Below, in pieces: positions 1 through 18,231 of a DNA stretch of 64,000 nucleotides. The stretch comes from Leifsonia sp. SCN 70-46. Its GTDB lineage: Bacteria; Actinomycetota; Actinomycetes; Actinomycetales; Microbacteriaceae. The notes beneath the pieces are model-generated. The model had not been told where the DNA came from. It saw only the letters and a list, made by a program, of their open reading frames with translations, and searched no databases. The stretch is taken from assembly GCA_001725325.1 (NCBI GenBank), contig MEFY01000002.1, positions 1,429,559 through 1,493,558 on the forward strand. The letters run 5' to 3'. The position numbers and the translations under genes were made by a program. Position 1 is the stretch's first letter. Every line of letters begins with the position of its first letter.

Positions 1-156
1 GTCATCGACGGGTGGGAGGCGAAGAACCTCGCCGACGCCCTCAACGCGCTCACCGCCGACGAGATCACCGCCATGAAGAAGGCGGCGGATGCCGCCGCGG
101 CCGACCTCTCGACCATCGGCGAGGGCCCCCGCTTCCTCGCGGAGGTCGGCGCCTAG
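1..156 (+). CDS. C-terminal fragment of a CDS cut by the window edge, probably glycosyltransferase
   Basis: Open frame from base 1 to TAG at 154-156 (VIDGWEAKNLADALNALTADEITAMKKAADAAAADLSTIGEGPRFLAEVGA); resembles glycosyltransferase C-termini and lies in a glycan locus. Confidence 0.5.
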   Translation, partial: VIDGWEAKNLADALNALTADEITAMKKAADAAAADLSTIGEGPRFLAEVGA

Positions 157-1451
157 GCGATCGCCTTGCCGATGACGCGGTAGGGGATGCCCGGCCACTG
201 CTCGGCCGACGACACCCGACGGCCGTCGATGAAGGCCTTGATGCCCGGCAGCTCGGCCGGGGTGAGCGACTTGTACTCCGCGTGGTCGGCCTGGACGACG
301 ACGGCGTCGACGGGCTCGCCCAGGTGGTAGGGCGTGAAGCCGAGCCGCGCGAGCTCGTCGTCGGTGTACATCGGGTCCTGCACCACGGGCACGGCGCCGC
401 GCTGCTTGAGCGCCTCGACCGCGCCGAAGACGCCGGAGAACGCGGTCTCCTTCACGCCGCCGCGGTAGGCGGCACCCAGCACGGCGACCTTCGCGCCCGT
501 GAGGTCGCCGTAGGCGCCCTCGAGCAGCCCGATCGTGTAGTCGGGCATCCCCGCGTTCGCGGCGCGCGCCGCCGACACGACGGTCGCCTCGGGGTCTGTC
601 CACAGGTAGAGGCGCGGGTAGACGGGGATGCAGTGGCCGCCGACCGCGATACCGGGCTGGTGGATGTGCGAGTAGGGCTGCGAGTTCGACGCCTCGATGA
701 CCTGGTAGACGTCGATGCCCGCGGTGGACGCGTAGCGCGCGAACTGGTTGGCGAGGCCGATGTTGACATCGCGGTAGGTGGTCTCCGCGAGCTTGGCGAG
801 CTCTGCGGCCTCGGCGCTGCCGAGGTCCCACACGCCGTTGGCGCGCGCGAGGTCGGCGCGCTCGTCGAAGTCCAGCACCTGCTGGTAGAAGTCGACGGCC
901 TTCGCGGCGCCGCGCTCGGAGAGCCCTCCCACGAGCTTGGGGTACTTGCGCAGGTCGGCGAAGACGCGACCGGTGAGCACGCGCTCCGGCGAGAAGACCA
1001 GGTCGAAGTCGACGCCCTCGGTGAGACCCGACGCCTCCTCGAGCATGGGCTTCCAGCGCGTGCGCGTGGTGCCCACCGGGAGGGTCGTCTCGTAGGCGAT
1101 GAGCGTGCCGGGCGTGAGCACGGCGCCGAGCGACTTGGTCGCCGCGTCCATCCAGCCGAAGTCGGGCTCCGCGGTCTCCTCGTCGACGAACAGCGGCACG
1201 ACGAGCACGACGGCATCGGCACCGGGCACGGCGTCGGCGTAGTCGGTCGTGGCGCGCAGCCGGCCCGCGGGCACGAGCTCAGAGAGCTTCTCCTGGAGGT
1301 GCGCCTCGCCGGGGAACGGCTCGATCCCCTTGTTGATCAGATCGACGGTCGGCTGGGAGACGTCGACGCCGACGACATCGTGGCCCTTGCTGGCGAACTG
1401 GACGGCGAGCGGAAGCCCGATCTTGCCGAGGGCGATGACAGCGATCTTCAC
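153..1451 (-). CDS. nucleotide sugar dehydrogenase (UDP-GlcNAc/UDP-ManNAc 6-dehydrogenase type, WbpA/WecC-like)
   Basis: VKIAVIALGKIGLPLAVQFASKGHDVVGVD N-terminal Rossmann motif and catalytic VGGHCIP motif; GTG start at 1451 inferred. Confidence 0.88.
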   Translation of the reverse strand: MKIAVIALGKIGLPLAVQFASKGHDVVGVDVSQPTVDLINKGIEPFPGEAHLQEKLSELVPAGRLRATTDYADAVPGADAVVLVVPLFVDEETAEPDFGWMDAATKSLGAVLTPGTLIAYETTLPVGTTRTRWKPMLEEASGLTEGVDFDLVFSPERVLTGRVFADLRKYPKLVGGLSERGAAKAVDFYQQVLDFDERADLARANGVWDLGSAEAAELAKLAETTYRDVNIGLANQFARYASTAGIDVYQVIEASNSQPYSHIHQPGIAVGGHCIPVYPRLYLWTDPEATVVSAARAANAGMPDYTIGLLEGAYGDLTGAKVAVLGAAYRGGVKETAFSGVFGAVEALKQRGAVPVVQDPMYTDDELARLGFTPYHLGEPVDAVVVQADHAEYKSLTPAELPGIKAFIDGRRVSSAEQWPGIPYRVIGKAIA

Positions 1452-1485: not shown

Positions 1486-2643
1486 CTACTTGGCGATGAT
1501 CGCGAGGCTGGTGTCGACGACCTGCTTCGCGATCGCATCGAGCGAGTACTCGGCGGCTGCCCAGGAGGCGAGCTCGGCCCGCGCCGCGGGCGAGAGCGGG
1601 CTCGAGGCGGAGGCGATCATCGCATCCGCGGTCGCCGCCACGTCGTAGTCCACGGCGGCGCCGGCGCTCGGGTGCCCCGCGTCCACGAGGAAGTCGACGG
1701 TGGGGCCGACGCCCGCGAAGATCACGGGGCATCCGGAGCTGAGCGACGAGTAGACCTTGGTGGCGAGCGCGTACTCGTTGCGCGCCACGGGGGTGAGGCT
1801 AGCGACCGATGCCGTCGCGCTCGCGAGGATGGGGGAGAGCTCCGCCGGCGGGATGGGGGAGTGGAACTCGACGAGGTCGCCCACGCCGAGCGCGCGGGCG
1901 CGGGCGCGCATGCTGTCGCGGTCCTCGCCGTTGCCGTAGTAGAGCAGGCGCGCGCCGGGGTGCTTCTCCAGCACGGCCGGCAGCGCGTCGATGAAGATGC
2001 CGGCGCCGTGCCACTCGGAGTGGGTGCCCGCGTAGACGAAGACGGGCGGGTTCTGCGGCGCCTGCCCGTCGTACCGGAAGTCGCCCGTGTCCGCGCCGAA
2101 ACCGATCGGGATGGCGGGGGTCTCGATGCCGACGGCGCGGAACCGGTCGACGAGCGGCTGGTGGGCGGCGAAGAGCATCCTCGCCCCGCGCAGACCCCAC
2201 GCCTCGGCCCGCCGCAGGGCGCCGAGCACGAAGCGCGAGCTCGTGACCATCTCGGCGGCCTCGCTCCAGTAGTCGGCCGCGCGCACGACGTAGGGGGTGC
2301 GGCGCAGCGCACCCACGATGCGCACGACCGCCACGGTCGTAGGGGGAGGCTCGACGATGTAGAGGTCGGCCCTGCGGGAGAACAGCAGCCGGAAGAAGAG
2401 GGGGATGTCGAAGCTCAGGTAGCTCAGGTACCCGCGCACGTACTGCTGCTTGTCGCGCTTGACGGGCACGCGCAGCACCCGCACGCCCTCGGGGTCGTCG
2501 ATGGCGGTGCCGAGCGGCGGCCGGGCGGTGAGCACGGTCACCCCGTGGCCGCGGGCGTGGAACTCCTCGGCCCACGACCGCAGGATGCCGGACGCCGCCG
2601 AGACCTCGGGTGCGAAGATCCGGCTCGCGATGACAACCCTCAT
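1486..2643 (-). CDS. glycosyltransferase family 4 protein
   Basis: MRVVIASRIFAPEVSAASGILRSWAEEFHARGHGVTVLT, C-terminal GT-B donor-binding region. Confidence 0.85.
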   Translation of the reverse strand: MRVVIASRIFAPEVSAASGILRSWAEEFHARGHGVTVLTARPPLGTAIDDPEGVRVLRVPVKRDKQQYVRGYLSYLSFDIPLFFRLLFSRRADLYIVEPPPTTVAVVRIVGALRRTPYVVRAADYWSEAAEMVTSSRFVLGALRRAEAWGLRGARMLFAAHQPLVDRFRAVGIETPAIPIGFGADTGDFRYDGQAPQNPPVFVYAGTHSEWHGAGIFIDALPAVLEKHPGARLLYYGNGEDRDSMRARARALGVGDLVEFHSPIPPAELSPILASATASVASLTPVARNEYALATKVYSSLSSGCPVIFAGVGPTVDFLVDAGHPSAGAAVDYDVAATADAMIASASSPLSPAARAELASWAAAEYSLDAIAKQVVDTSLAIIAK

Positions 2644-3788
2644 CGGGCTCCCGCGAGCAACCGCCCCACGAGCGCATCCTGCGTGGCGCGGTCGGGCTCG
2701 CTCGAGAGTGCCTTGGCCGCCTTGTCCGAGGCCCTCTTGAACCCCGCGACCTCGTCGGCGGTGAGGTTCTCGAGCGCGGCGACGAGCGCGTCGGAGCTCG
2801 TGTCGGCCGTGATGATCCCGAGCTCGTACTCCCCGATGTGCGTGTTGATCTCCGGGGCGGGCGAGAACACGAGGCCCAGGCGCGCCTGCACGAAGTCGAA
2901 GAACTTGTTGGGCAGGTGGTACAGGTGGCTGAGGGTCTTGAGCGGGTAGAGGAAGACGCCCAGGTCGTACTGGTTGAGCACGTCGGGCAGCGTCTCCGGC
3001 GGCACCGGGTCGTGAACGGTCGTGCGCGGGCTCGACGTCGCGCGCTTGGCGATCTCGTCGAGATGTCCACCCGGCACGCGCAGGAGGTAGAGGTCGAGCG
3101 AGAACCGGTCGCCGAGGCGGTCGACGGCGTCGATGAGCTCCATGATGTTGCGCTCGGCGTCAGCCGTGCCGCTGTGCACGAGCTTGATGACCGCCGGGTC
3201 GACAGGGGTGGGCTTGAGGGTGCGGTACGACGCGGAGTTGCGGACGACCTCCGTGGTGACGCCGTACCGCTCGCTGTACAGGTTCGCAAGGCCCGCGCTC
3301 ACGCTCGTGACCGCGGTGGTGCGGGGGAGGTAGGTGCGGCAGAGGTACTCCATGTACGGCCCGACCAGCACGCGCCAGACGAAGACCGTGGCCCGCTCCT
3401 CGGGCGCCCATTCGTGCATGTCGGCGAGGAGAGGGGCGTCGCCCTTGGCGGCGAAGGCGAGCGGGAGGGCGCGCGCGTCGTTGGCGACGACGAGGTCGTA
3501 GGGGCCCGACTCGACGACCTCGCGGCGCACGGCCTTCTCGCCCGGCGTCGTGAGCTCGACGGCCCTGTGCAGGCGCAACGCGAGCTTGAGCACGCCCAGC
3601 GGCGTCTCCGGCAGGGAGGACGCCCCCTTCGGGATCTCGATGTGCCGTGCAACACCCTCGGGGGCGGGTCCGTAACCGACGGTCGTGACGTCTCCGTGCT
3701 GCTGCAGCACCTCCACCTGCCGAAGCACGCGGGAATCGGCGTGAATGGGCGAGAACGAGACGCAGAGAATTTTTTTCTTGGGGGGCAA
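2640..3788 (-). CDS. glycosyltransferase (GT-B fold)
   Basis: KKKILCVSFSPIHADSRVLRQVEVLQQHGDVTTVGYGP; 4-bp overlap with the downstream gene. Confidence 0.8.
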   Translation of the reverse strand: MPPKKKILCVSFSPIHADSRVLRQVEVLQQHGDVTTVGYGPAPEGVARHIEIPKGASSLPETPLGVLKLALRLHRAVELTTPGEKAVRREVVESGPYDLVVANDARALPLAFAAKGDAPLLADMHEWAPEERATVFVWRVLVGPYMEYLCRTYLPRTTAVTSVSAGLANLYSERYGVTTEVVRNSASYRTLKPTPVDPAVIKLVHSGTADAERNIMELIDAVDRLGDRFSLDLYLLRVPGGHLDEIAKRATSSPRTTVHDPVPPETLPDVLNQYDLGVFLYPLKTLSHLYHLPNKFFDFVQARLGLVFSPAPEINTHIGEYELGIITADTSSDALVAALENLTADEVAGFKRASDKAAKALSSEPDRATQDALVGRLLAGAR

Positions 3789-4032: not shown

Positions 4033-5820
4033 TTGAAGTCAGCGAAGTCCGTCCTCGACCTTTACCGTCAAGTTTTAGCCGTGTTCCCGTCGGGCGGATC
4101 TCGATTCCTCAACCTCTACTCCTGGCTGCTCGCCTCATTGGCGATTTTCGACGCAGCCGCGCTCGGTCTGCTGGCAGTGACGATCGGACCGGTCGCCGCA
4201 GGCACCCCCGTCGTGCTCCCACTGGTGGGTCAGCTCGACAGTGCCGGCGTGGCCTGGACCATCGTGCTGATCTGCGTGCTCATGGTCGTCAAAGGCGCTC
4301 TGTCGGTGCTCGTGACATGGTGGGCCACCCGCCGCATCCCGCGCTACGAGGTGGCGATCGGCGACCGCCTCTTCCGCTCGTACATCACCGCGCCTTGGCG
4401 CGATCGCCTGCGCAAGAACTCGGCCGAGATCATGCGATTCGCTGACACGGGAGTCGACGCTACGGTGAACAGCTTCGTGCTACCGGGCGCGACCCTTCTC
4501 AGCGAGGCCATCAGCCTGGTGACGATCATCGCGACCCTCGCCATCGTGCAGCCGATACTGGCGCTGACGACCCTCGTGTACCTCCTCCTCCTCGGCGCCG
4601 TTCTGTTCTTCTGGGTCGCGGGTCACGCCCGAAAGGCAGGCGAGGTGCACGTCGAGAACACGATCAGCGCCTCTCGTCTCGTGCTTGAGATCGTCAGCGC
4701 TCTGAAGGAGGTGTCGCTGCGCAACAAGGAGGCTGCCGTGGCAGACATCGTCGAGGAGACCCGCGGACGAAGCGCTCGCGCTCGCGCCAACCTCTACTTC
4801 CTCAGCCAGCTCCCTCGTTACGCACTCGAGTCTGGCCTGATCGTGGGCTTCTTGGTCGTCGGCGGTGTGGGATTCCTGACCGGTGGTCTCGAGCAGGCGA
4901 TCGCCGCGGTCGCCCTGTTCGCGCTCGCGGGCTTCCGCATGGCACCCTCGGTCATCCGTTTTCAGTCTGTGCTGGCGCAGATGGTTTCGATCGCCGAGTA
5001 CCCTCGCCGGGTGCTAAGTGAGTTGGCCGACACGGAGGAGTCTGCCGCCGGGATTGCGAGTCGCCCGACTCGTGCCCTGCCGGAGCACCCCTCGACCATC
5101 GCGCTCGAGAACGTTAGCTTCAGCTACTCGGACAGCGCCCCGCTGGCCCTCCGTGACGTCTCGCTCGAGATTCCCTTCGGCTCATCCGTCGCTTTCGTCG
5201 GTGCCTCTGGCTCGGGCAAGTCGACGATGGTCGATATCCTCCTCAGTCTGCTTGAGCCCACCAGCGGCACAATCTCGATAGACGGCGAACCGCTCTCAGA
5301 ACTGCGCGCCGATTGGCGGTCGCGTGTCGGATATGTGCCGCAAGAGGTCGCGCTGTTCGACGCCACAATCGCGCAGAACGTCGCCCTCACCTGGGGCGAC
5401 GACTTTGATGCAGAGCGGGTGCAGCGGGCCCTGGAGCAGGCGCAACTCTGGGAGATGGTCTCTGCCAAAGAAGGCGGAATGCTCTCGAGAGTCGGCGAGC
5501 GGGGTCTTGCCCTCTCTGGTGGACAGCGTCAGCGCCTCGGCATCGCGCGCGCCCTCTACGCGGAACCGCTTGTGCTGGTGCTCGACGAAGCCACGAGCGC
5601 GCTCGACACCACGACGGAGGCGCTCGTAACAAGCGGAATCGACGCGATCGGGGGCGGGGTGACGAAGATCGTCGTGGCCCACCGGTTGGCGACGATCCGC
5701 AACGCCGACCGGATCTTCTTCATGGCTGACGGAGTCGTTGTACGCAGCGGTACCTTTGCGGAGCTTGTGGACTCGGTGCCGGAGTTCGCCACGCAGGCCG
5801 GGCTCGCGGGCCTCACATAA
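4033..5820 (+). CDS. ABC transporter, fused permease/ATPase (PglK-like polysaccharide/LLO flippase type)
   Basis: N-terminal TM segments, LPRYALESG motif, Walker A GASGSGKST, signature LSGGQRQRLGIARAL, Walker B LVLDEATSALD; TTG start with ACGGAGG SD. Confidence 0.85.
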   Translation: MKSAKSVLDLYRQVLAVFPSGGSRFLNLYSWLLASLAIFDAAALGLLAVTIGPVAAGTPVVLPLVGQLDSAGVAWTIVLICVLMVVKGALSVLVTWWATRRIPRYEVAIGDRLFRSYITAPWRDRLRKNSAEIMRFADTGVDATVNSFVLPGATLLSEAISLVTIIATLAIVQPILALTTLVYLLLLGAVLFFWVAGHARKAGEVHVENTISASRLVLEIVSALKEVSLRNKEAAVADIVEETRGRSARARANLYFLSQLPRYALESGLIVGFLVVGGVGFLTGGLEQAIAAVALFALAGFRMAPSVIRFQSVLAQMVSIAEYPRRVLSELADTEESAAGIASRPTRALPEHPSTIALENVSFSYSDSAPLALRDVSLEIPFGSSVAFVGASGSGKSTMVDILLSLLEPTSGTISIDGEPLSELRADWRSRVGYVPQEVALFDATIAQNVALTWGDDFDAERVQRALEQAQLWEMVSAKEGGMLSRVGERGLALSGGQRQRLGIARALYAEPLVLVLDEATSALDTTTEALVTSGIDAIGGGVTKIVVAHRLATIRNADRIFFMADGVVVRSGTFAELVDSVPEFATQAGLAGLT

Positions 5821-5900
5821 GCCCGGCGACACGCGACATTCCGACGAAGGGTGCTGATGTCCGCACGGTAGCCTAGGAGGGGTTACCGGAGGGGTGTTTC

Positions 5901-8900
5901 ATGGGGCGGCATTCGCGTGAGACGAAGAGACGACGTCTCGCAACAGGCCTTGTGATGCGCCGTTCGGCGTCACTGATCACCTCAGTTGTCACGCTCAGCG
6001 CGGCTCTCGTGGCCTTTCAGCCGGTCCCCGCTGCGCAGGCACTGAGCGGCTCTGAGTTCAACCCGGGGTTCATCATTTCCGACGAGCTCTTCTATGACGG
6101 CTCGGCCATGACAGCTGCGCAGATTCAGGCCTTCCTCGACAACAAGATCGGCTCGTGCCAGAACGACCGTTGCCTCAACGTCGCGTCGTTGCCTGTGACG
6201 ACACGGCCCGTGGACTACTCGTCGGCCACGGGAGCCCTGGTCTGTTCAGAGATCAGTGGCGGCACGATGCGACCCGCCGAGCTCATCTATCGCACCCAGG
6301 TCGCCTGCGGAATCTCAGCGAAGGTGATCCTCGTCACGCTACAAAAAGAACAGGGGCTGATCACCAGCAGAGCTCCTTCTGAAAGCGCGCTGCGTGCGGC
6401 AATGGGGATGGGATGCCCCGATACCGCGCCGTGTGATTCGGCTTTCGCCGGCCTGGCTACCCAGATCATGACAGGCACTCGCCAGCTGAAGGTCTATAAG
6501 GCCGGCAAATTCAGTCGCCAACCGGGTACTCACTTCATCCAGTACAACCCCGATTCCTCATGCGGCGGCACGAACGTCGAGATTCGCAATTATGCGACAG
6601 CCGCTCTGTACAACTACACGCCGTACCAGCCCAACGCCGCGTCGCTGGCCAACCTCGGGACCACGGGAGACGGATGCTCGAGCTACGGTAACCGCAACTT
6701 CTGGGCCTACTACAACAACTGGTTTGGTCCGACCACCGAGCCGACCTGTGTCACGAATCCCAGCCGCGATATCACCACCTACTGGAGCGAGCAGGGTGGC
6801 AGTGCCGGCGCGCTTGGAGTACCGGTGTCGCCCGGGATCGTGTCGGGCGCTGCGGGCGCCGTCGGCTTCTATGCGAACGGCAGCGTCTACTGCACGCCGC
6901 GCATCGGCGCGGTCGGCGTGATCGGTGACAGTCGCACTACGTTCGAGGCGCTCGGCGGGCCTAGCGGCGCGCTGGGTGCTCCGTTGGCCACCCGGGTGCC
7001 CTTCAGCGCGGGCGGTCTCTCCGGTTACGTGCAGGAATTCCAGCGCGGAACGATGCTCTCGTCAGCCACGACCGGCAGCCACGCGGTGATGCACGGCGCT
7101 GTGCGGGATGCCTGGGGTTCGCGGGGCGGCTCCGCGGGGATACTCGGCTGGCCGGTCGGCGATCAGGAAGCAGTTTCGGGATCCGTGCGCCAACGATTCC
7201 AGCACGGCGTCATCTCGGTCGCAACGGGTAAGGCACCGATAGTACTCGTGGGTGAGATCGGCGCCCTGTGGTCGACAGGAACAAACGCTGCGGCCCTCGG
7301 CGCGCCCACAAGCACGGAGTCGCCGCTGACAGCGGGCGGTGTCACGGGAAGCCTGCAGTACTTCGAGAGAGGGATGGTGCTGTCGTCGACGTCGACCGGA
7401 ACCCGCGCCGTGCTCAATGGTGCTGTGCGCAATGCATGGGGCGCGCAGGGGGGTAGCGGCGGCGCGCTCGGCTGGCCTGTCGGGGATCAGCAGGCGACAG
7501 CCGATGGGTTCCGGCAGGAGTTTCAGTTCGGAACGATCTTTGCATCCGCCTCCGGTGCAGGCGGAACCTTGCTCGGTGACATCGCCACCTACTGGGGAGC
7601 AGGCACCAACGCGACCAAGCTCGGGTACCCCACCGCGGCGGCCACGGCCTGGACAGCCGGCGGCGTAACAGGCATGCTTCAGTACTTCGAGAAGGGCTTG
7701 GTCCTCTCGTCGTCGGTCACGGGCACTTATGCAGTTCTCGATGGGCCGATCCGCAACGCCTGGGGAGCCTCGGGAGGCTCGGGAGGCAGCGCTGGCTGGC
7801 CAACGGGGGATCAGGCCACGGTATCGGGACAGTTGAGCCAGCAGTTCCAGCGCGCCACTCTTTCAGCGTCGGCAGGCGTCTCGGCCAACATCTCCAACTA
7901 TCTGGCCACCGGCTCCAACGCGGCACGGCTCGGTGCATCGACGGGGAACGCCACCGCCTGGACTGCGGGTGGAGTATCCGGAGCGCTCCAGTACTTCTCC
8001 AAGGGGATGGTGCTCTCGTCCGCGACGACAGGTACCTTCGCTGTTCTCAACGGGCCGATTCGCGACGCGTGGGGAGCACAGGGTGGCTCAGGCGGCACAC
8101 TGGGCTGGCCGATCAGCGACCAGACGACCGTGTCGGGCCAGCTCAGCCAGCAGTTCCAGCGCGGCGTGATCTCCATCTCGACGGGCGGCGCTGGCGGCGC
8201 GATCGATACCTACATGGCTACCGGCAATAACGCTGCACTTTTCGGCGCGGCAACAGGAGCGCCGCAGCCGTGGACAGCCGGAGGCGTCACCGGCACGCTG
8301 CAGTACTTCGCGCAGGGCATGGTTCTCTCTTCGGCGACCACGGGCACTTACGGTGTGCTCAGTGGCCCTATGCGCACCGCGTGGGGTGCGCAGGGCGGCT
8401 CCGGCGGGAGCCTCGGCTGGCCGACGGGTGATCAGACGCTGGTCGCAGGCAAGCTGCGCCAGCAGTTCCAGAACGGTGTGCTTACCGTCTCGTCCTCGGG
8501 CGCGGGTTCCGTGCTTACCGGCGACATAGCCACTTACTGGTCGACGGGGTCGAACGCTTCGCTGCTCGGCGAACCGACCGGCTCGGCCACGTCGTGGACA
8601 TCCGGAGGCATCACGGGAACGCTGCAGAACTTCGCGCGCGGCGTTGTGTTGTCATCGTCGACGACCGGCACTTTCGCAGTTGTCGACGGACCTCTGCGAA
8701 ACGCCTGGGGTGCACAGGGTGGCACGGGTGGCGCGCTCGGCTGGCCCGTATCTGACCAGACGGTAGTCACAGGCGGCATTCGTCAACAATTCGTGGGTGG
8801 AAGTCTCACCATTACCGACGAGGGCGCAACAATTCTGCTGTCCGGCGCGTACTACACGTACTGGTCGGCCGGTACGAACGCCACGGCGCTCGGAGCTCCG

Positions 8901-9176
8901 ATCGCGACGGTCACACCGTGGGCTGCGGGCGGCGTCACCGGATCGTATCTCGTCTTTGAGAGAGGGATGGTGATGTCGTCAGCCACGACGGGCACCTTCG
9001 CGGTGCTCAACGGCCCGATTCGAAATTTCTGGGGAAGTCAGGGCGGTTCTGTCGGTGTGCTGGGCTGGCCCACTGCCGACCAGCTGACGGTTCCGGAGGG
9101 TATTCAACAGCAGTTCCAAGGCGGCACCGTGGTGATCCCGACGACAGGCCCTGCCTATATCGTCCCTATCCCATAA
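5901..9176 (+). CDS. secreted LGFP-repeat protein with N-terminal cell-wall-associated domain
   Basis: Signal-peptide-like N-terminus, N-terminal domain with LVTLQKEQGLIT, then repeated LG(W/A/E)P and WGAQGGSGG LGFP-type units to the C-terminus. Confidence 0.85.
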   Translation: MGRHSRETKRRRLATGLVMRRSASLITSVVTLSAALVAFQPVPAAQALSGSEFNPGFIISDELFYDGSAMTAAQIQAFLDNKIGSCQNDRCLNVASLPVTTRPVDYSSATGALVCSEISGGTMRPAELIYRTQVACGISAKVILVTLQKEQGLITSRAPSESALRAAMGMGCPDTAPCDSAFAGLATQIMTGTRQLKVYKAGKFSRQPGTHFIQYNPDSSCGGTNVEIRNYATAALYNYTPYQPNAASLANLGTTGDGCSSYGNRNFWAYYNNWFGPTTEPTCVTNPSRDITTYWSEQGGSAGALGVPVSPGIVSGAAGAVGFYANGSVYCTPRIGAVGVIGDSRTTFEALGGPSGALGAPLATRVPFSAGGLSGYVQEFQRGTMLSSATTGSHAVMHGAVRDAWGSRGGSAGILGWPVGDQEAVSGSVRQRFQHGVISVATGKAPIVLVGEIGALWSTGTNAAALGAPTSTESPLTAGGVTGSLQYFERGMVLSSTSTGTRAVLNGAVRNAWGAQGGSGGALGWPVGDQQATADGFRQEFQFGTIFASASGAGGTLLGDIATYWGAGTNATKLGYPTAAATAWTAGGVTGMLQYFEKGLVLSSSVTGTYAVLDGPIRNAWGASGGSGGSAGWPTGDQATVSGQLSQQFQRATLSASAGVSANISNYLATGSNAARLGASTGNATAWTAGGVSGALQYFSKGMVLSSATTGTFAVLNGPIRDAWGAQGGSGGTLGWPISDQTTVSGQLSQQFQRGVISISTGGAGGAIDTYMATGNNAALFGAATGAPQPWTAGGVTGTLQYFAQGMVLSSATTGTYGVLSGPMRTAWGAQGGSGGSLGWPTGDQTLVAGKLRQQFQNGVLTVSSSGAGSVLTGDIATYWSTGSNASLLGEPTGSATSWTSGGITGTLQNFARGVVLSSSTTGTFAVVDGPLRNAWGAQGGTGGALGWPVSDQTVVTGGIRQQFVGGSLTITDEGATILLSGAYYTYWSAGTNATALGAPIATVTPWAAGGVTGSYLVFERGMVMSSATTGTFAVLNGPIRNFWGSQGGSVGVLGWPTADQLTVPEGIQQQFQGGTVVIPTTGPAYIVPIP
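6766..9170 (+). repeat. intragenic tandem LGFP supermodules (~324 bp period)
   Basis: Conserved RNAWGAQGG Trp codon at 7113, 7437, 7761, 8070, 8382, 8706, 9030 (spacings 324,324,309,312,324,324). Confidence 0.85.
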
Positions 9177-9332
9177 CAGCGGCGGAACCCTCGGCGCGGG
9201 TGGAAGAACGGGCTCGGTCAGTCTGCGGGCGCTAGCGTCGAACCCCCGGCACCCCCTGACGTTCTCAATTGAGTATCGTGAGTGTGGAGCGCCGCTACGG
9301 GTGATGCTCGAAAGAATCAACAGGAGAGCCGA

Positions 9333-11159
9333 ATGGTCAAGGCGCGCGCGCAGAACTACAACGTGCCGTCGCGAGTTGTTACTCCAGTTCTGACCGACGT
9401 CGCTGCCTGGGTGGTCGCGCTGTGCTTGGGAGTTTTCCTGAGCGCCGACTTCGACATCGCGTCGCCGAACTGGACGGCTGTGGTGCTGGTCGCACTGGCG
9501 GTCGCTGCGCTGCAGGTGGTCATCGGTTTGCTCGGGGGCCTGTATCGGGGCCGCTACCGCCTTGGCAGTCTCGACGAGATCTTCGCGATCCTGCTGCCTG
9601 TCGGCCTCATCGCCGTCGTGCTGGGAGTCCTCGTTGCAGCGTTTGGCGCCGATTGGGGCGTGCCGAGAAGCACAGTTCTCGTCGCGGGCCCCATCGCGCT
9701 CGCCTTCATCGGGGCGGGGCGCGTGATCACGCGCCTCCTTGCTGAGCGTCAGCGCTGGCATGCCAGCGAGAACGCGCGGCCCGCGCTGATCTACGGGGCG
9801 GGCGAGGCTGGTGTCGGGCTGGCAAGCCGCCTTCTTGCGGAGACTGGTTCTCCCTACTATCCCGTGGGGCTCATCGACGACAGCCCGCGCAAGCGGCATC
9901 TCAAGCACGGATCGATCGAAGTCATCGGCACGGGAGCAGATCTCGCAGAGTCAGTTGTCCGCACGGGTGCGGAAGCGATCATCATCGCCATCGGCCGCGC
10001 GGATGCCGCTCTGCTTCGACGGGTTTCAGACGCGGTCGACGGCCTGGCCGTTCAGATCAAGGTGCTGCCGCCGCTCGAGCAGATCCTTCACGGCGGGGCG
10101 CGCTATTGGGACCTCCGGGATATCTCGATCGAGGATCTCATCGGCCGCGCACCAATAGACACGGATCTCTCGTCGATCTCCGACTACGTGTCCGGAGCGC
10201 GGGTGCTCGTGACGGGCGCGGGCGGCTCGATCGGCTCGGAGCTCGCCGTCCAGCTCGCACGATTCGGCCCAAGCCAGCTCGTGCTTGTCGACCGCGACGA
10301 GTCTGGGCTCCAGCAGACTCAAATTGACATTGACGGGAATGGGCTACTCACCTCCGAAGGGATAGTCCTCGCGGACATTCGCGACCCCGCGAAGCTGCAG
10401 GAGGTGTTCGAGCTCGTGCGCCCGGAGGTTGTCTTCCATGCCGCCGCGCTCAAGCACCTCACCCTTCTTGAACGATTTCCCGAGGAGGCATGGAAGACGA
10501 ACGTGCTGGGCACGCTCAACGTCCTGCGCGCTGCCCGATCGGTGGGGACCACGACATTCGTCAACGTCTCGACCGACAAGGCAGCGAATCCAACGAGCGC
10601 CCTCGGTCACTCAAAGCGGGCCGCAGAGAGGCTGACCTCTTGGTTCGCCAAGGACCTCGGCCTGCGGTACGTCTCCGTGCGTTTCGGCAACGTCATCGGC
10701 AGTCGGGGCTCTATGCTGCCGACGTTCATCCGGCTGATCTCGACCGGAGGGCCGCTCACGGTGACCCATCCGGAGGCGACTCGCTACTTCATGACGATCC
10801 GCGAAGCCTGCCAGCTGGTGATCCAGGCGGGAGCGATCGCGCGCGGCGGCGAGGTGCTCATCCTCGACATGGGTGAGCCGGTGCGTATACAAGACATTGC
10901 TCGCCGGATGATCGCAATGTCTGGCAAAGACATTGACATTGTCTATACCGGCCTCCGGCCCGGTGAGAAGCTGCACGAGGAACTCGTCGGCGAGGGCGAA
11001 GCAGACGAACGTCCTCTCCATCCCCTCATTTCCCACGCCGCCGTCGACCCTCTCCACCCGGACGAGCTCGACCGCGCGGCGTGGCTCGCGGCGCTCGGGC
11101 AGCGTCCCGCGGACATTGACGTGGCGGCAGTGACCGATATCGCGAAAGGGCGGAGCTGA
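9333..11159 (+). CDS. membrane nucleoside-diphosphate-sugar 4,6-dehydratase (PglF/WbpM/CapD family)
   Basis: N-terminal TM domain, GAGEAGVGLASRLL, GAGGSIGSELAVQLARFGP, STDKAANPTSALGHSKRAAE, LRPGEKLHEEL; ATG at 9333 with AGGAGAG SD. Confidence 0.9.
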   Translation: MVKARAQNYNVPSRVVTPVLTDVAAWVVALCLGVFLSADFDIASPNWTAVVLVALAVAALQVVIGLLGGLYRGRYRLGSLDEIFAILLPVGLIAVVLGVLVAAFGADWGVPRSTVLVAGPIALAFIGAGRVITRLLAERQRWHASENARPALIYGAGEAGVGLASRLLAETGSPYYPVGLIDDSPRKRHLKHGSIEVIGTGADLAESVVRTGAEAIIIAIGRADAALLRRVSDAVDGLAVQIKVLPPLEQILHGGARYWDLRDISIEDLIGRAPIDTDLSSISDYVSGARVLVTGAGGSIGSELAVQLARFGPSQLVLVDRDESGLQQTQIDIDGNGLLTSEGIVLADIRDPAKLQEVFELVRPEVVFHAAALKHLTLLERFPEEAWKTNVLGTLNVLRAARSVGTTTFVNVSTDKAANPTSALGHSKRAAERLTSWFAKDLGLRYVSVRFGNVIGSRGSMLPTFIRLISTGGPLTVTHPEATRYFMTIREACQLVIQAGAIARGGEVLILDMGEPVRIQDIARRMIAMSGKDIDIVYTGLRPGEKLHEELVGEGEADERPLHPLISHAAVDPLHPDELDRAAWLAALGQRPADIDVAAVTDIAKGRS

Positions 11160-11160
11160 A

Positions 11161-12294
11161 ATGCGAATCTATATGTCCCCGCCAGATGTCGGTGAGCTTG
11201 AAGAGCAGTACGTGGTGGCAGCACTCCGCTCAGGGTGGGTTGCTCCGCTCGGCCCGGAGGTCGACGCCTTTGAGGCTGAGCTTGCCGAGCGGGTCGCGGT
11301 GAAGCACGGCGTCGCGCTGAGCTCTGGCACTGCAGGACTACACCTCGGCCTGCTGGCGTTGGGCGTTGGCCCGGGGGATGTTGTCGTCACGAGCACGATG
11401 ACCTTCGCCGCGACCGCGAATGCCATCGTCTACACGGGCGCGGAGCCGTACTTCGTCGATGTGGACCTCGCGACCGGAAACATGTCGCCCGAGCTTCTCG
11501 AGCAGGCTCTGGTGCGACTTGGTGCAGCAGGTGAGTCGGTCGCGGCGGTAGTCCCCGTGGATCTTCTCGGGAAAGCGGTCGACTACACGGCGATCGAGGA
11601 GATCGCTGCTCGTCATGGGGTTCCGGTTCTGGCAGATGCGGCGGAGTCTCTCGGCGCGACGCACCGGGGGCGCGCTGCGGGAAGCTTCGGACGTGCGTCG
11701 GTGCTGTCGTTCAACGGCAACAAGATCATGACGACATCGGGGGGCGGCATGCTCCTGACCGACGATTCCGACCTCGCCAGCCGTGTCCGTTACCTCGCAA
11801 CCCAAGCGCGGCAGCCCGCAATACACTTCGAGCACACCGACATCGGCTACAACTACCGCCTCAGCAATCTGCTCGCGGCGCTGGGCCGAGCGCAGCTCTC
11901 ACGTCTTGACGCGATGATGGCGCGACGCCGAGACCTTCGCGAACTATACAAGGCTCGCTTCGCCGAGGTCCCCGGAGTAACAGTGTTCGGGGCCGACGGC
12001 GACGCGGAGGACAACGTCTGGCTCTCGTCTGTGCTCGTCGACGAATCGGTCACAGGGTGGTCGCCCTCTGAGCTCAGCGCGACGCTGATCGCTGCCGACA
12101 TCGAGTCGCGCCCGTTGTGGAAGCCGATGCACCTTCAGCCGGTCTTCGCAGGCGCGCGCGGGGAGATCACGGGAACGTCGGAACAGTTGTTCCGCACAGG
12201 CCTCACACTGCCGAGTGGCTCGTCGCTGGGCGAGCCAGAGCGAGAGCGCGTCTTCGCAGTGATCGACGATTTCCTGGCAACGAGGATGCGGTGA
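11161..12294 (+). CDS. DegT/DnrJ/EryC1/StrS aminotransferase (PglE-like)
   Basis: MRIYMSPPDVGELEEQYVVAALRSGWVAPLGPEVDAFE; PLP-lysine motif LSFNGNKIMTTSGGGML. Confidence 0.9.
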   Translation: MRIYMSPPDVGELEEQYVVAALRSGWVAPLGPEVDAFEAELAERVAVKHGVALSSGTAGLHLGLLALGVGPGDVVVTSTMTFAATANAIVYTGAEPYFVDVDLATGNMSPELLEQALVRLGAAGESVAAVVPVDLLGKAVDYTAIEEIAARHGVPVLADAAESLGATHRGRAAGSFGRASVLSFNGNKIMTTSGGGMLLTDDSDLASRVRYLATQARQPAIHFEHTDIGYNYRLSNLLAALGRAQLSRLDAMMARRRDLRELYKARFAEVPGVTVFGADGDAEDNVWLSSVLVDESVTGWSPSELSATLIAADIESRPLWKPMHLQPVFAGARGEITGTSEQLFRTGLTLPSGSSLGEPERERVFAVIDDFLATRMR

Positions 12295-12965
12295 GCTCTG
12301 GCGGCATCGAGGTTGTGGTTGTCGGCGCCGGTGGGTTCGGGCGGGAGACGCTCGATGTGATCGCGTCGCACAACCGTGCTCGTCCCGAAGAGCACATCGT
12401 GGTGCGCGGTGTCGTGGATGACGAACCCAGCAGCCTCAACCTCGAGCGGCTCGGTGCGCTTGGCCACCGCTGGCTCGGACCTCTCGACGACCAGCTCCTC
12501 GCCGATCCGGGCCACTTCATCCTCGCCGTCGGGAACCCCGCGGTGAGAGCCGCGCTCGACAGCCGGTTCGTTGCGGCGGGATGGAGCGCGCAGACGGTGG
12601 TCCATCCGGCTGCTGTGCTCGGCACGGTTCGCGAGATTGGGGCGGGGAGCGTGATCTGTGCCGGTGTACAGCTCTCGACCAACACGGTCCTCGGCCGACA
12701 CGTCCACCTCAATCCGTCCGCCGTTATCGGTCATGACTCGGAACTCTCGGACTTCGTCTCTGTGAACCCCGGCGCCATCGTGTCTGGTGAGGTCAGAGTG
12801 CTTGAGCGCGCACTCATCGGTGCGGGTGCTGTTATCAGGCAGGGCCTGACGGTGGGAGCGAGCGCGACAGTCGGGGCGAGCGCGTGCGTGACCCGGGACG
12901 TTCCAGCGGGCGAGGTTGTGATCGGTGTGCCCGCCAGACCCATGCGGACGTTCGACGTTGAGTGA
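12291..12965 (+). CDS. sugar O/N-acetyltransferase, left-handed beta-helix (PglD/NeuD family)
   Basis: VVVVGAGGFGRETLDVI N-terminal Rossmann-like domain plus hexapeptide repeats; GTG start overlapping the upstream stop by 4 bp. Confidence 0.85.
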   Translation: MSSGGIEVVVVGAGGFGRETLDVIASHNRARPEEHIVVRGVVDDEPSSLNLERLGALGHRWLGPLDDQLLADPGHFILAVGNPAVRAALDSRFVAAGWSAQTVVHPAAVLGTVREIGAGSVICAGVQLSTNTVLGRHVHLNPSAVIGHDSELSDFVSVNPGAIVSGEVRVLERALIGAGAVIRQGLTVGASATVGASACVTRDVPAGEVVIGVPARPMRTFDVE

Positions 12966-14253
12966 CAGCGACGCAGCAGTCGTACGATCCGCTGTGGTGG
13001 TCTTCACCTCTGCCTATCCGTACGGTCATGGCGAGGAATTCCTAGACGGCGAGATTCCCTATCTGCTCACAGAGTTCGACCGCGTCATCGTTGTACCCAC
13101 TCTGCAGTTGCGAGGTCAGCTGCCGACTCGCCGGGTGCTGGACGGCGTGGAGGTGGTCGCACCGGAGACACGTGGTCGCCGTGGACTCATCGAGCTAGCT
13201 GCGCTATGCGCACGCCACCCGCTCACTGCCGCGAGGCTCCTGGCGAGGACGATCCGGGGCGCGGCTGATCTCAGCGCCCTGCGCGACGACCTGCAGTTCG
13301 ACCTTCTCTCGACGTGGGTCGCCCTGCGTGTCCGCAGGCGACTCGGCGCCCTTCTGGAGGAGGTGCCTGAGGTCGTCTTCTACGGGTTCTGGTTGGGGGA
13401 GCCCGCCAGAGTTGCGCTTGAGACGCGAAGGCTCCTGCGTCGTCCTCTGTCACCTGCGGTCGCGCGCGCGAACGGTTTCGACCTCTTCGCCGAGCGCAGT
13501 TCTCGCGGGTACCTTCCTCAGCGACCTCTCATCCTCAGCGGTGTAGATCGCGTGTACGCCGCGTCGGAACCCGCGCAAGCCTATCTGCAGGCCCGCTATC
13601 CGGAGTTCAGCGAGAAGTACCGCGTCGCGCGCATCGGCACCACGGCCCCCATCGGGGCGGGAAACAGCCGACGGCTTCCGGTGCATGTTGTGTCGTGTTG
13701 CTACATCTCGCCGGTCAAGCGTGTCCCGATGCTGGTCGATGGCCTCGCCGAACTGCAGCGGCACGGCGTCGAATTACGCTGGAGCCATATTGGCTGGGGT
13801 GCCGAGGACTACGTGTCCGAGGTGATCGCTTACGCCCGAGAGCGCCTCGAGCCAGGGACGTTCGAGTTTCTCGGTCACATGGAGTCCGACGAAGTACGGC
13901 GTTGGTACGCAGCGAATCCGGCAACCTTCTTCTCGCAGATGTCCGAGTCCGAGGGAGGCCTCGCGGCATCTATTCAGGAGGCGCTCGCGCAAGGCTTGCC
14001 CGTCATCGTCACGAGTGTCGGGGGTGTCGCTGTGCTCGCCGACGCTGAACAGCAGATGTTTGACGGGCTTCTCGCCGCAGACCACACGCCGACGGAGTTC
14101 GCGGAACGCGCCGAGCTCCTGCTCGCAGTCGACGATTCGACCTACCGGTCGTACGCGGCCGCCGCGATGGAGTACTGGCAACAGAACTGCTCCGCAGAAG
14201 TGCGGGCGGGCGGCTTCGCTGCAGGCCTCCGGGAGCTCAGTCGACGGCAGTGA
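12958..14253 (+). CDS. glycosyltransferase (GT-B, GT4-like)
   Basis: VVVFTSAYPYGHGEEFLDGEIPYL...; C-terminal SESEGGLAASIQEALAQGLPVIVTSVGG; start uncertain (TTG 12958 or a downstream GTG). Confidence 0.8.
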   Translation: MSDSDAAVVRSAVVVFTSAYPYGHGEEFLDGEIPYLLTEFDRVIVVPTLQLRGQLPTRRVLDGVEVVAPETRGRRGLIELAALCARHPLTAARLLARTIRGAADLSALRDDLQFDLLSTWVALRVRRRLGALLEEVPEVVFYGFWLGEPARVALETRRLLRRPLSPAVARANGFDLFAERSSRGYLPQRPLILSGVDRVYAASEPAQAYLQARYPEFSEKYRVARIGTTAPIGAGNSRRLPVHVVSCCYISPVKRVPMLVDGLAELQRHGVELRWSHIGWGAEDYVSEVIAYARERLEPGTFEFLGHMESDEVRRWYAANPATFFSQMSESEGGLAASIQEALAQGLPVIVTSVGGVAVLADAEQQMFDGLLAADHTPTEFAERAELLLAVDDSTYRSYAAAAMEYWQQNCSAEVRAGGFAAGLRELSRRQ

Positions 14254-15233
14254 TCAAGCGTCGATGCGCGAGGTTCGTCCGTCTTCGACGAGCTGCTCGG
14301 CAATCTCGACAACACGGGTGCCCTCGGCGAAGGTGACGATGCCCTTGGCTTCGCCGGCGAGCACAGAGTCGCGAAAGGCTTCGTGCTCGGCGAGCAGGGG
14401 CTCCTTGCGATCGAGAGCGTAGCGGGTGACGTCGCCCTCGGAGACGCCGCGGAACTCTCCCGGGTCCCAGGAGACCTCGATGCGGCCGTTCTCATAGAAG
14501 GTGAGGTCGCCGGTGAGGGTGTCGGCGACGAGCACACCCTTCTCCCCGGTGATTGTCGTGGTGCGCTCTTTGAAGGGCGTCAGCCAGTTGACGACGTGCG
14601 AGGTGATGGTGCCGCCCGAGAGGGTGCCGACAGCCGTGACCATGTCTTCGTGGGCGCGGCCGCTGCGGTGGGCAGTGCGGGCGTTGACGGAGACGAACTC
14701 TTGCTGGGCGACCCAAGCGGTGAGGTCGATATCGTGCGTGGCGAGGTCTTTGATGACGCCGACATCCGCGATGCGCCCGGGGAAGGGGCCCTGGCGACGC
14801 GTGGCGATCTGGTAGATCTCGCCGAGTTGGCCGTCTTCGATGCGCTTGCGCGCGGCCTGCAGTGCGGGGTTGTAGCGCTCGATGTGGCCGACGCCGCCCA
14901 CGAGGCCTCTGCTTTCGTAGAGGTCGCGCAGGGCGATGGCATCCTCAGCGGTTGAGGCGACCGGCTTTTCCACGAGAGCGTGGATGCCCGCCTCGGCCAA
15001 CTTCTTGCCCATCTCGAGGTGGTAGATGGTCGGGGCAGCAACTACGGCGTAGCTGATGCCAAGGTCGATCAGTTCGTCGAGATCGTGAATGACCGGCGCA
15101 TCGAACACATGATCCGGGGTGTTGGGCGCGGGGTCGAAAACGCCGACGAAGTCGACGCCCTCGAGGCTGGCGAGCACACGGGCGTGGTTGCGCCCCATGA
15201 CGCCCAGGCCCAGAAGTCCTGCGCGCAGCGCCA

Positions 15234-15234
<1 letters not shown>
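14254..15234 (-). CDS. Gfo/Idh/MocA family oxidoreductase (WbpB/WlbA-like)
   Basis: MALRAGLLGLGVMGRNHARVLASLEGVDFVGVFDP; ALVEKPVA motif. Confidence 0.88.
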
Positions 15235-16306
<1,072 letters not shown>

Positions 16307-16310
<4 letters not shown>

Positions 16311-16909
16311 TCGTGCACCTCAATCAGTTCGTCGTCGCCGACCTGGCGGTAGCGAGCTCCGGTCGCCGGGCAGAGCCATTCTCCCGGCGTGGTGGTGTCT
16401 GCGGTGAGCGGGTGGCCGGCCGTGCCGACCCAGCCCACTCGGCGCGCGGGGCTTCCGACCACGAGCGCGAAATCGGGGACGTCCTTGACGACGACGGAGC
16501 CGGAGCCCACGAGGGCCCACCGGCCGATCACGACGGGGGCGACACACGTCGCGCTCGCGCCGATCGAGGCGCCCTCGCGGATGTCGACGCCCACGGGCTC
16601 CCAGTCGTGCGCGGACTTCGGCGAGCCGTCGGCGTTGATGGCGCGTGGGAAGTGGTCGTTCGTGAGCACGACCGCGGGGCCGATGAAGACGCCGCGCGCG
16701 AGCTTCGCGGGCTCGTACACGAGCGCGTAGTTCTGGATCTTGCAGTTGTCGCCGACCTCGACGCCCGTGCCGATGTACGCACCGCGGCCGACTATGACGT
16801 TCTCGCCCAGCGACGCGCTCTCGCGCACCTGCGCGTAGTGCCAGACCCGGGCGCTCTCGGCGATGGTCGCGCTGTCGGCGACGTCCGCCGTGGCGTGCAC
16901 GTTGCCCAT
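16307..16909 (-). CDS. acyltransferase (WbpD/WlbB-like UDP-sugar N-acetyltransferase)
   Basis: MGNVHATADVADSATIAESARVWHYAQVRESASLGENVIVGRGAYIGTGVEVGDNCKIQNYALVYEPAKL hexapeptide pattern. Confidence 0.87.
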
Positions 16910-16983
16910 GATGGTTCTCTCCAAGGGGTGAGGCGACAGGCGGACGAGTATCGATCCTACCCGTTCGGGATAGGGTGGGCGCC

Positions 16984-18231
16984 ATGCAGCAGGGGCTCGC
17001 GAGGCGCATCGTCGGGTTCGCCGGGCTCCCGTTCCTCTCGCTCATCACGCCCTTCCTCTTCCTTCCGGTGCTCGCGCGCGTCGCGGGCGCCGACGCGTGG
17101 CTCGCGATCGCCGTCGGCCAGTCGAGCGGCGGCTTCCTCGCCCTCGTCGTCGCGCTCGGCTACAACACAGTGGGGCCGCCCCTCGTCGCCGTCGCCGCCG
17201 ACTTCGACCGCCCGCGGCTGCTCGCCAGGAGCCTGAAGGCGCGCGTCGTGCTGTGGGTGCCGAGCGCCGCGGTCGCGATCGTCGTGGCGGCGGTCGTGGC
17301 GCCCTCGAGCCACCGCCTCGAGGCCGCCCTCATGGCGCTCGCCCTCACCCTCACGGGCCTCTCGTCGGCGTGGTACATGATCGGCCTCGGGCGCGCGAGC
17401 GCGATAGCCCTCTACGAGATCGCGCCGCGCATCGTCGCCACGATCGCCGCCGCGGTGATCGTGCTCGCGGGCGGACCCGTCGTCTGGTACCCGCTCCTGC
17501 TCATCGTCGCCCTCGTGGTCGGGGTCGTGGCCTATGCGGCGCGCACGCTCCGGGGCGCCGACCTCGCGCGCGGCGGCTGGACGGACGTGCGGGGGGTGCT
17601 GCGCGCGAACCGCTCGGCCGTCGCGATCGAGCTCGCGGGCGGCGCGTACAACTCGCTCGCCGTGACGTTCGTGGGCGCGTCGGCATCCGCCGCGCAGGCC
17701 GCGTCGTACGTCTCGGGCGACAAGCTCTACCGCATGGGGCAGTACTCGGTGTCAGCCCTCGGCAACGCCCTGCAGGGGTGGGTCGTCGAGCACGGCTCCG
17801 CCGAGTTCGGCAGGCGCGCGCGCCGGTCGTTCGTGCTGCACCTCGCCCTCGGCCTCCTCGGCCTCGCGGCGTTCGCGCTGCTCGGGCCGTGGCTCTCCGG
17901 CCTTTTGTTCGGCGAGCACGTGGCCATCGACGAGGCGACAGCCCTCGGCCTCGGGGCCGCCACGGTCGGCATCGCCCTCGGCACGGCGCTCGGCCGCATC
18001 ATCCTCATCGGCATGGGCGCGCGCCGCGCGTTCCTCGCCAGCGTCGTGCTCGCGGCGTGCGTGGGCGTGCCCGCGATCCTCGTGCTGTCGTCGCTCTTCG
18101 GCGCCGCGGGCGGCGCGTGGGGCCTCGCGGCCGGAGAGCTCGTGTCGGTGACCGCGCAGGCCGTCTCGGTGCTCGTGCTGCGGCGCCGCGCGGGCGGGCT
18201 CGTCGTCGACGTGGGCCGCGACGGCGCCTAG
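16984..18231 (+). CDS. polysaccharide flippase / oligosaccharide translocase (Wzx-like)
   Basis: About 12 hydrophobic segments, MQQGLARRIVGFAGLPFLSLITPFLFLPVLARVAGADAW; TAGGGT -10-like element 7 nt upstream of the ATG. Confidence 0.75.
   Translation: MQQGLARRIVGFAGLPFLSLITPFLFLPVLARVAGADAWLAIAVGQSSGGFLALVVALGYNTVGPPLVAVAADFDRPRLLARSLKARVVLWVPSAAVAIVVAAVVAPSSHRLEAALMALALTLTGLSSAWYMIGLGRASAIALYEIAPRIVATIAAAVIVLAGGPVVWYPLLLIVALVVGVVAYAARTLRGADLARGGWTDVRGVLRANRSAVAIELAGGAYNSLAVTFVGASASAAQAASYVSGDKLYRMGQYSVSALGNALQGWVVEHGSAEFGRRARRSFVLHLALGLLGLAAFALLGPWLSGLLFGEHVAIDEATALGLGAATVGIALGTALGRIILIGMGARRAFLASVVLAACVGVPAILVLSSLFGAAGGAWGLAAGELVSVTAQAVSVLVLRRRAGGLVVDVGRDGA

Follow-up and report, generated by a model that had tools for sequence, protein, structure and literature searches.

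A probable UDP-di-N-acetylbacillosamine gene set without a PglC-like transferase in an actinobacterial surface-glycan locus

Three neighbouring genes in the window (the whole stretch of 64,000 nucleotides of Leifsonia sp. SCN 70-46 DNA that was analysed), coding for a dehydratase, an aminotransferase and an acetyltransferase, are best read from their sequence families as a set for UDP-N,N'-diacetylbacillosamine (UDP-diNAcBac), and the locus is most likely a variant of a known pathway that is without the PglC-like transferase (PGT). Di-N-acetylbacillosamine (diNAcBac) is a rare sugar that is known mainly as the reducing-end, chain-initiating sugar. Almost all relatives of this locus keep the lipid-attaching enzyme that this actinobacterium, of the Microbacteriaceae type, has lost. 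We lean towards the explanation that the trio makes UDP-diNAcBac, that the PglC-like gene was lost, and that diNAcBac enters a surface polysaccharide as a residue other than the initiating one, probably added by the GT4 glycosyltransferase encoded next to the trio.

An inserted block in a surface-glycan locus

The initial annotation had described six genes at 4033-14253 as a bacillosamine cassette, and open reading frame and profile checks showed that all six are real, intact and on the + strand. The start codons of the genes for the LGFP-repeat protein, the dehydratase and the GT4 are uncertain, their open reading frames opening upstream at 5901, 9282 and 12925, respectively. The block is compositionally foreign, with a GC content of ~0.65 compared to about 0.70-0.73 in the flanks and a GC3 of 0.75-0.80 compared to mostly 0.92-0.98, and it splits a sugar operon of the WbpA/B/D/E type that lies on the opposite (-) strand. 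On one side of the block are genes on the - strand for a UDP-HexNAc 6-dehydrogenase (WbpA/WecC-like; 153..1451; TIGR03026 at 291 bits, above cut-off), a GT4 glycosyltransferase (1486..2643; PF13579/PF13692) and a glycosyltransferase with weak GT4 domains (2640..3788). On the other side, also on the - strand, are those for a Gfo/Idh/MocA dehydrogenase (WbpB-like; 14254..15234; PF01408, and the NCBIfam model for UDP-GlcNAc 3-dehydrogenase at 191 bits, below cut-off), a second DegT aminotransferase (WbpE-like; 15234..16310; PF01041 at 415 bits and operon order) and a hexapeptide acyltransferase (WbpD-like; 16307..16909; PF00132 and operon order). Further along are a putative flippase (16975-18231), for which Pfam gave no family, and a protein of the Wzy_C/O-antigen-ligase family (18231..19529, - strand; PF04932, E 4e-16) that may be a polymerase, a ligase or an O-OTase. 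The 6-dehydrogenase, 3-dehydrogenase, aminotransferase and acyltransferase classes held in this one locus are those of the Pseudomonas WbpA/B/D/E pathway (UDP-GlcNAc3NAcA), the only grounds for this assignment being enzyme class and operon order, and these genes are not part of the inserted trio.

The trio and its actinobacterial module

The dehydratase (9333..11159, + strand; PF02719 at 327 bits) is of the PglF/WbpM/EpsC type of membrane UDP-GlcNAc 4,6-dehydratases. It matched PglF (5bju) with 253 bits over 296 aa, while the next best type, CapD, scored 127 bits and the inverting PseB type (2gn4) 115 bits, and it has the motif STDKA.xPT.x(M/L)G in common with PglF, as expected of a retaining enzyme of the PglF type. 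The aminotransferase (11161..12294, + strand; PF01041) is a DegT enzyme of the PglE/EpsN/LegC type. A profile of its family scored PglE at 322 bits and perosamine synthetase (PerA) at 274, a gap of 48 bits, and it shares the PglE-type motifs NGNK, TTSGGGM, TQAR..HYEH, RPLWKxMHxQxVF and LPSG. In the tree the PglE branch joins the clade of actinobacterial aminotransferases with an SH-aLRT of 98 and PerA falls outside, the long branches leaving the exact place of PglE unsure. The acetyltransferase (12291..12965, + strand) is a left-handed beta-helix N-acetyltransferase of the NeuD/PglD type, expected to act on a C4 amino group; it scored 175.6 bits against TIGR03570 (NeuD/PglB/VioB family), over the cut-off of 160.8, and keeps the conserved His of the GHD/DHD/AHD motif. 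Its PDB matches were VioB (92.6 bits), the Neisseria PglB domain (86.5), an Acinetobacter protein (85.8) and Campylobacter jejuni PglD (47). Since it is nearer to VioB than to C. jejuni PglD, its subfamily by itself does not fix the sugar. The profile searches and the phylogeny that the initial annotation had called for thus place the dehydratase with PglF, the aminotransferase with PglE rather than with perosamine synthetase, and the acetyltransferase in the NeuD/PglD family. From these assignments we infer that the dehydratase would 4,6-dehydrate UDP-GlcNAc (the PglF/EpsC step), the aminotransferase would aminate C4 (PglE/EpsN) and the acetyltransferase would N-acetylate the product to UDP-diNAcBac (PglD/EpsM).

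The same genes are found together in relatives. Among 100 distinct related actinobacterial loci, 53 have the order dehydratase-aminotransferase-PGT-acetyltransferase, and the aminotransferase adjoins a PglF-type dehydratase in 90 and a PglC-like transferase in 75. The transferases of these modules are mostly 44-55% identical to PglC, and one of them scored 213 bits for PglC versus 114 for WbaP. The trio, therefore, appears to derive from a common actinobacterial module of dehydratase, aminotransferase, PglC-like transferase and acetyltransferase. This bears on whether the aminotransferase and the acetyltransferase could use another nucleotide sugar, for example GDP-4-keto-6-deoxymannose, and yield GDP-N-acetylperosamine. 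A GDP-mannose dehydratase-like gene does lie 13 kb from the aminotransferase (25359-26348), in a single-sequence search PglE, at 242 bits, was only narrowly ahead of perosamine synthetase, at 234, and the acetyltransferase matched perosamine N-acetyltransferase (70 bits) above C. jejuni PglD. Set against the family profile, the PglE-type diagnostic motifs, the position of PerA in the tree and the PglF- and PglC-like neighbours of the aminotransferase in relatives, a perosamine product is very improbable.

UDP-diNAcBac is also the precursor of legionaminate in an established pathway, and the best NCBIfam model for the aminotransferase is the LegC family (352 bits, under its cut-off of 420), so that UDP-diNAcBac might be an intermediate only. 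Extension of the pathway in this direction has been noted (PMC7725333). However, neither a hydrolysing 2-epimerase nor a NeuB-like synthase was found in the cassette or the neighbours scanned, and the GT4 gene directly follows that of the acetyltransferase, which makes a route to legionaminate the least likely of the alternatives that we weighed.

Loss of the PglC-like gene

The stop codon of the aminotransferase gene and the start codon of the acetyltransferase gene overlap by 4 nt (GTGA; 12291..12294, + strand) at the point where relatives carry the PglC-like gene. A PGT lies between these two genes in 55 of the 100 distinct loci and, by the criterion used, a direct junction was found in none. 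A second genome, G220, has the same junction, and no PF02397 protein was found in it; because G220 is a metagenome-assembled genome that is 82% complete, the missing PGT there is weak evidence when taken alone. In the tree the window and G220 are nested among loci that bear a PGT. The initial annotation had stated that neither PglC nor PglB was visible in the window. This holds and now extends to the whole genome, in which no match to the STT3 oligosaccharyltransferase (PF02516) was found at E 0.001 and no small monotopic PGT of the PglC type was found. What had been put as a gene not seen is better described, from the overlap, the shared junction and the nesting, as a real and derived absence: the PglC-like gene appears to have been lost cleanly. 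The dehydratase, aminotransferase, acetyltransferase and GT genes have pN/pS values of 0.10-0.26, which points to purifying selection on them after the loss of the PGT. If the gene was lost cleanly, diNAcBac would probably be used further along the chain and not as the first, lipid-linked sugar.

It could be argued that diNAcBac still initiates the chain because another transferase replaces PglC in trans. Only two PF02397 transferases, neither of the PglC type, exist in the genome, and such relocation does occur: the genomes of two relatives, G100 and G256, have no adjacent PGT and carry elsewhere a PglC-like enzyme that is 53% identical to PglC (about 207 bits). By comparison, the two candidates share only 39% and 34% identity with PglC and score 138 and 89 bits, respectively. 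The long one (C2:766729-768222) is in a separate glycan locus, and although it could conceivably accept UDP-diNAcBac, replacement of PglC by either enzyme is unlikely. The short one (C1:541535-542209) lies beside a dehydratase and an aminotransferase, and this cluster was considered as the missing bacillosamine half and then dropped, since its aminotransferase is closest to the streptococcal capsule enzyme 6ewj (321 bits) and not to PglE. Its transferase was likewise rejected as the missing PglC, being weakly PglC-like, with 86 bits as against 79 for WbaP.

Exporter, LGFP protein and the place of the sugar

The ABC exporter (4033..5820, + strand; fused TMD-NBD of the flippase type, PF00005) had been counted as a PglK-like member of this set, and that part of the earlier reading was not supported, although the bacillosamine trio in a surface-glycan locus was. 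The exporter is as MsbA-like (255 bits) as it is PglK-like (240 bits), both scores being far under cut-off (1000 for PglK). In relatives, homologues at 52-83% adjoin these GT genes in loci that lack the trio, and 19 loci carry a homologue at 44-79% and no trio. The motif LPRYALESG is weak evidence for PglK because similar motifs are present in 14 of the 17 exporters listed, including ones without the trio. The exporter thus appears to belong to the locus around the trio and not to the trio itself.

The secreted LGFP-repeat protein (5952..9176, + strand; PF08310) has 11 LGFP stretches, and its N-terminal 306 aa had no match in Pfam, so that an N-terminal domain of ~250 aa is without a family. 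This domain recurs in the loci of relatives, and the protein is repeatedly encoded in loci of this kind, whether they have the trio or lack it; nothing, therefore, marks it as the acceptor that had been suggested. Members of the Wzy_C/O-antigen-ligase superfamily include O-oligosaccharyltransferases, and one such family protein is in the locus; together with the likeness of the trio and the exporter type to pgl genes this could point to Pgl-like glycosylation of the LGFP protein or of others. We consider this improbable, since the genome has neither STT3/PglB nor a PglC-type transferase, the exporter and the LGFP protein recur without the trio, and polysaccharide genes fill the locus.

Use of diNAcBac as a non-initiating residue agrees better with these results. 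Another enzyme would start the chain, and diNAcBac would be added later, probably by the GT4 of the cassette (12994..14253, + strand; PF13692/PF00534), which is a candidate for this step. An orthologue of this GT4 was found in only one other genome, G220 (78%), likewise after the acetyltransferase. The final place of the sugar would then be a surface polysaccharide handled by the exporter and the Wzy_C-family protein of the locus. More tentatively, and with rather less confidence than in the reading above, an initiating bacillosamine module may have become a supplier of an internal or branch residue through a clean deletion of PglC and gain of a new GT4, as antigen switching in a variable slot of Microbacteriaceae glycan loci.

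That a Gram-positive bacterium uses UDP-diNAcBac is not new; it is already established for EpsCNM/EpsL of Bacillus subtilis (PMC10653937). There, too, a surface polysaccharide locus encodes the three classes of enzyme that lead to UDP-diNAcBac, the likeness being one of enzyme class. The host of the window, however, is actinobacterial, its genes are inserted as a block in a locus of the WbpA/B/D/E type, and the EpsL/PglC-type transferase has a counterpart in actinobacterial relatives and none in the window. With the Pgl system of C. jejuni the window has the F, E and D enzyme classes and a nearby ABC exporter in common, but here the exporter is a locus-wide gene and both the PglC-type transferase and PglB are missing from the genome. 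A literature search for bacillosamine with Microbacterium found no paper naming both, and one for actinobacterial bacillosamine likewise yielded nothing. If our reading is true, the bacillosamine pathway is widespread in Actinomycetota and has natural versions without PglC, and comparing these with relatives that bear PglC would test the move of the sugar from an initiating to an internal position.

The gene downstream in the 100 distinct loci codes for the acetyltransferase in 57 and for an ATP-grasp protein in 14, and both were never found together (Fisher p 2e-6). The same swap after the transferase is known as the acyl swap of PglB and PglB2 in Neisseria (PMC11130364), where the domains are fused, whereas the actinobacterial relatives have separate genes. 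These mutually exclusive genes suggest acyl switching in Gram-positives too.

The gene block and the identity of the three sugar enzymes

The six genes at 4033-14253 that were described in the initial annotation are all intact and on one strand (+), and they have the domains named for them. The genome is 3.12 Mb in two contigs (C1 and C2) and is 99.67% complete, the window being at C2:1429559-1493558, and genera with matches in the named collection were largely Microbacteriaceae. The GC content of the block is ~0.65 and its GC3 is 0.75-0.80, compared to ~0.70-0.73 and mostly 0.92-0.98, respectively, around it. It splits a series of minus-strand genes into a left half with two GTs and a UDP-HexNAc 6-dehydrogenase and a right half with an acyltransferase, an aminotransferase, and a Gfo/Idh dehydrogenase. 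Going by composition and strand, the block looks like a segment acquired by a WbpA/B/D/E-type locus. A 418-aa membrane-protein-like ORF at 16975-18231, in the position of a flippase, has no Pfam match and is conserved in relatives (64-82% in loci L128-L130).

The proposal that the dehydratase (9333-11159), aminotransferase (11161-12294), and acetyltransferase (12291-12965) form a UDP-N,N'-diacetylbacillosamine (UDP-diNAcBac) set was supported by the comparisons. The dehydratase scored 253 bits against PglF, and the next types were CapD (127), CapE (126), and the inverting UDP-GlcNAc C6 dehydratase 2gn4 (115). For the aminotransferase, a single-sequence search gave nearly equal scores with PglE (242 bits) and perosamine synthetase (234). 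A family profile built from ten actinobacterial relatives gave 322 bits for PglE and 274 for perosamine synthetase, and the motifs NGNK, TTSGGGM, TQAR..HYEH, RPLWKxMHxQxVF, and LPSG are common to the aminotransferase and PglE and not to perosamine synthetase. In a maximum-likelihood tree, to be read with caution for its long branches, PglE adjoins the actinobacterial clade (SH-aLRT 98) with perosamine synthetase outside. The acetyltransferase scored above the cut-off for the NeuD/PglB/VioB family and retains the active-site His region; VioB and the enzymes of Neisseria and Acinetobacter are nearer to it than Cj PglD is. It supports some 4-amino sugar as the substrate but does not single one out. 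The predicted product of the three enzymes is, with good probability, UDP-diNAcBac.

Absence of a PglC-like transferase and a proposed role of the sugar

The end of the aminotransferase gene shares four bases (GTGA) with the start of the acetyltransferase gene, and therefore there is no room for a transferase between them. This junction is not an assembly error because it recurs on one contig of G220, a MAG (82% complete) with a 91% identical aminotransferase; another contig of G220 has the same acetyltransferase-GT4 arrangement as the window, convergent with Gfo/Idh and WbpE-like genes. No PF02397 protein was found in this MAG. The absence of PglC claimed for the window extends to the genome, where the only two PF02397 proteins share 39% and 34% identity with PglC. 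In two further relatives that lack an adjacent transferase, a PglC-like one (53%) is present elsewhere. Since the window and G220 group together in the tree inside a set of transferase-bearing loci, loss of the transferase is most simply a derived state. Between these two genomes pN/pS is 0.10-0.26 for the dehydratase, aminotransferase, acetyltransferase, and GT4, so selection has continued to act on these genes since the loss, provided that both genomes owe the junction to one event.

A second sugar module, at C1:541535-544631 (L011:10536-13632), adjoins ispE/rsmA-like genes. It has a small PF02397 transferase and a soluble PF02719 dehydratase, its aminotransferase matches the streptococcal capsule protein 6ewj (321 bits), and it is possibly an AATGal-type initiating module.

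The genome also has two PF00953 proteins, presumably MraY and a WecA-type enzyme that could start the chain, and the locus has a Wzy_C-family protein (18231-19529); STT3 was not found in the genome. We propose, somewhat in favor and with less assurance than for the product, that UDP-diNAcBac would be made by the three enzymes and its sugar joined to the chain as a non-initiating residue, a step for which the GT4 of the block is a candidate. Among 400 genomes, a GT4 orthologue was found only in G220, apart from one 35% match.

The exporter and a variable segment

The exporter (4033-5820) had been taken as a PglK-like member of the cassette, and a dedicated role of this kind was not supported. 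Its best homologues (52-83%) adjoin the same GT genes, in many cases with Gfo/Idh-WbpE-WbpD genes close by, and none of the 19 such loci examined over their full length has the three enzymes at orthologue level. From the exporter to the Gfo/Idh gene (5821-14253), related genomes differ in this segment (L129, L138, and L140), with another GT-dehydratase-reductase set in L129 and, from translations named by eye, amidotransferase and HisH/HisF-like genes in L140. This suggests a serotype-like variable slot. Because exporter homologues occur without the three enzymes and the segment differs, the exporter would be part of the locus and the three enzymes part of the slot. The exporter (also L109) has a dS of 1.27 between the window and G220 compared to ~0.7 for the three enzymes and the Gfo/Idh gene, hinting at a different history. 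The ~250-aa N-terminal domain of the LGFP protein (5952-6870), for which no Pfam family was found, is in many Microbacteriaceae glycan loci at 48-62% identity, including loci without the three enzymes.

Related actinobacterial loci

Of 300 genomes sampled from the family, 33 have an aminotransferase orthologue of at least 55% identity, with none in the five congeners within that draw, and 80 named loci from many actinobacterial genera have one of at least 61%. After 12 duplicates were taken out, 100 distinct loci were compared. A PglF-type dehydratase is upstream of the aminotransferase in 90, a small PF02397 transferase is directly 3' of it in 75, and the full order dehydratase-aminotransferase-transferase-acetyltransferase is present in 53. 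These transferases are mostly 44-55% identical to PglC, and for one of them the scores were 213 bits with C. concisus PglC and 114 with WbaP. The four-gene loci have the same gene content as B. subtilis EpsC-N-L-M, whose use of UDP-diNAcBac was shown biochemically and by C. jejuni pglC complementation (PMC10653937); bacillosamine in a Gram-positive is already known.

The downstream gene is an acetyltransferase in 57 of the 100 loci and an ATP-grasp protein (PF02655) in 14 (L061:15076-16119 and 13 others), and in none are both together. The PF02655 protein replaces the acetyltransferase after either the aminotransferase or the PglC-like gene. This swap resembles the PglB/PglB2 alternative of Neisseria, where acetyltransferase or ATP-grasp separates diNAcBac from a glyceramido sugar (PMC11130364, PMC6959607).
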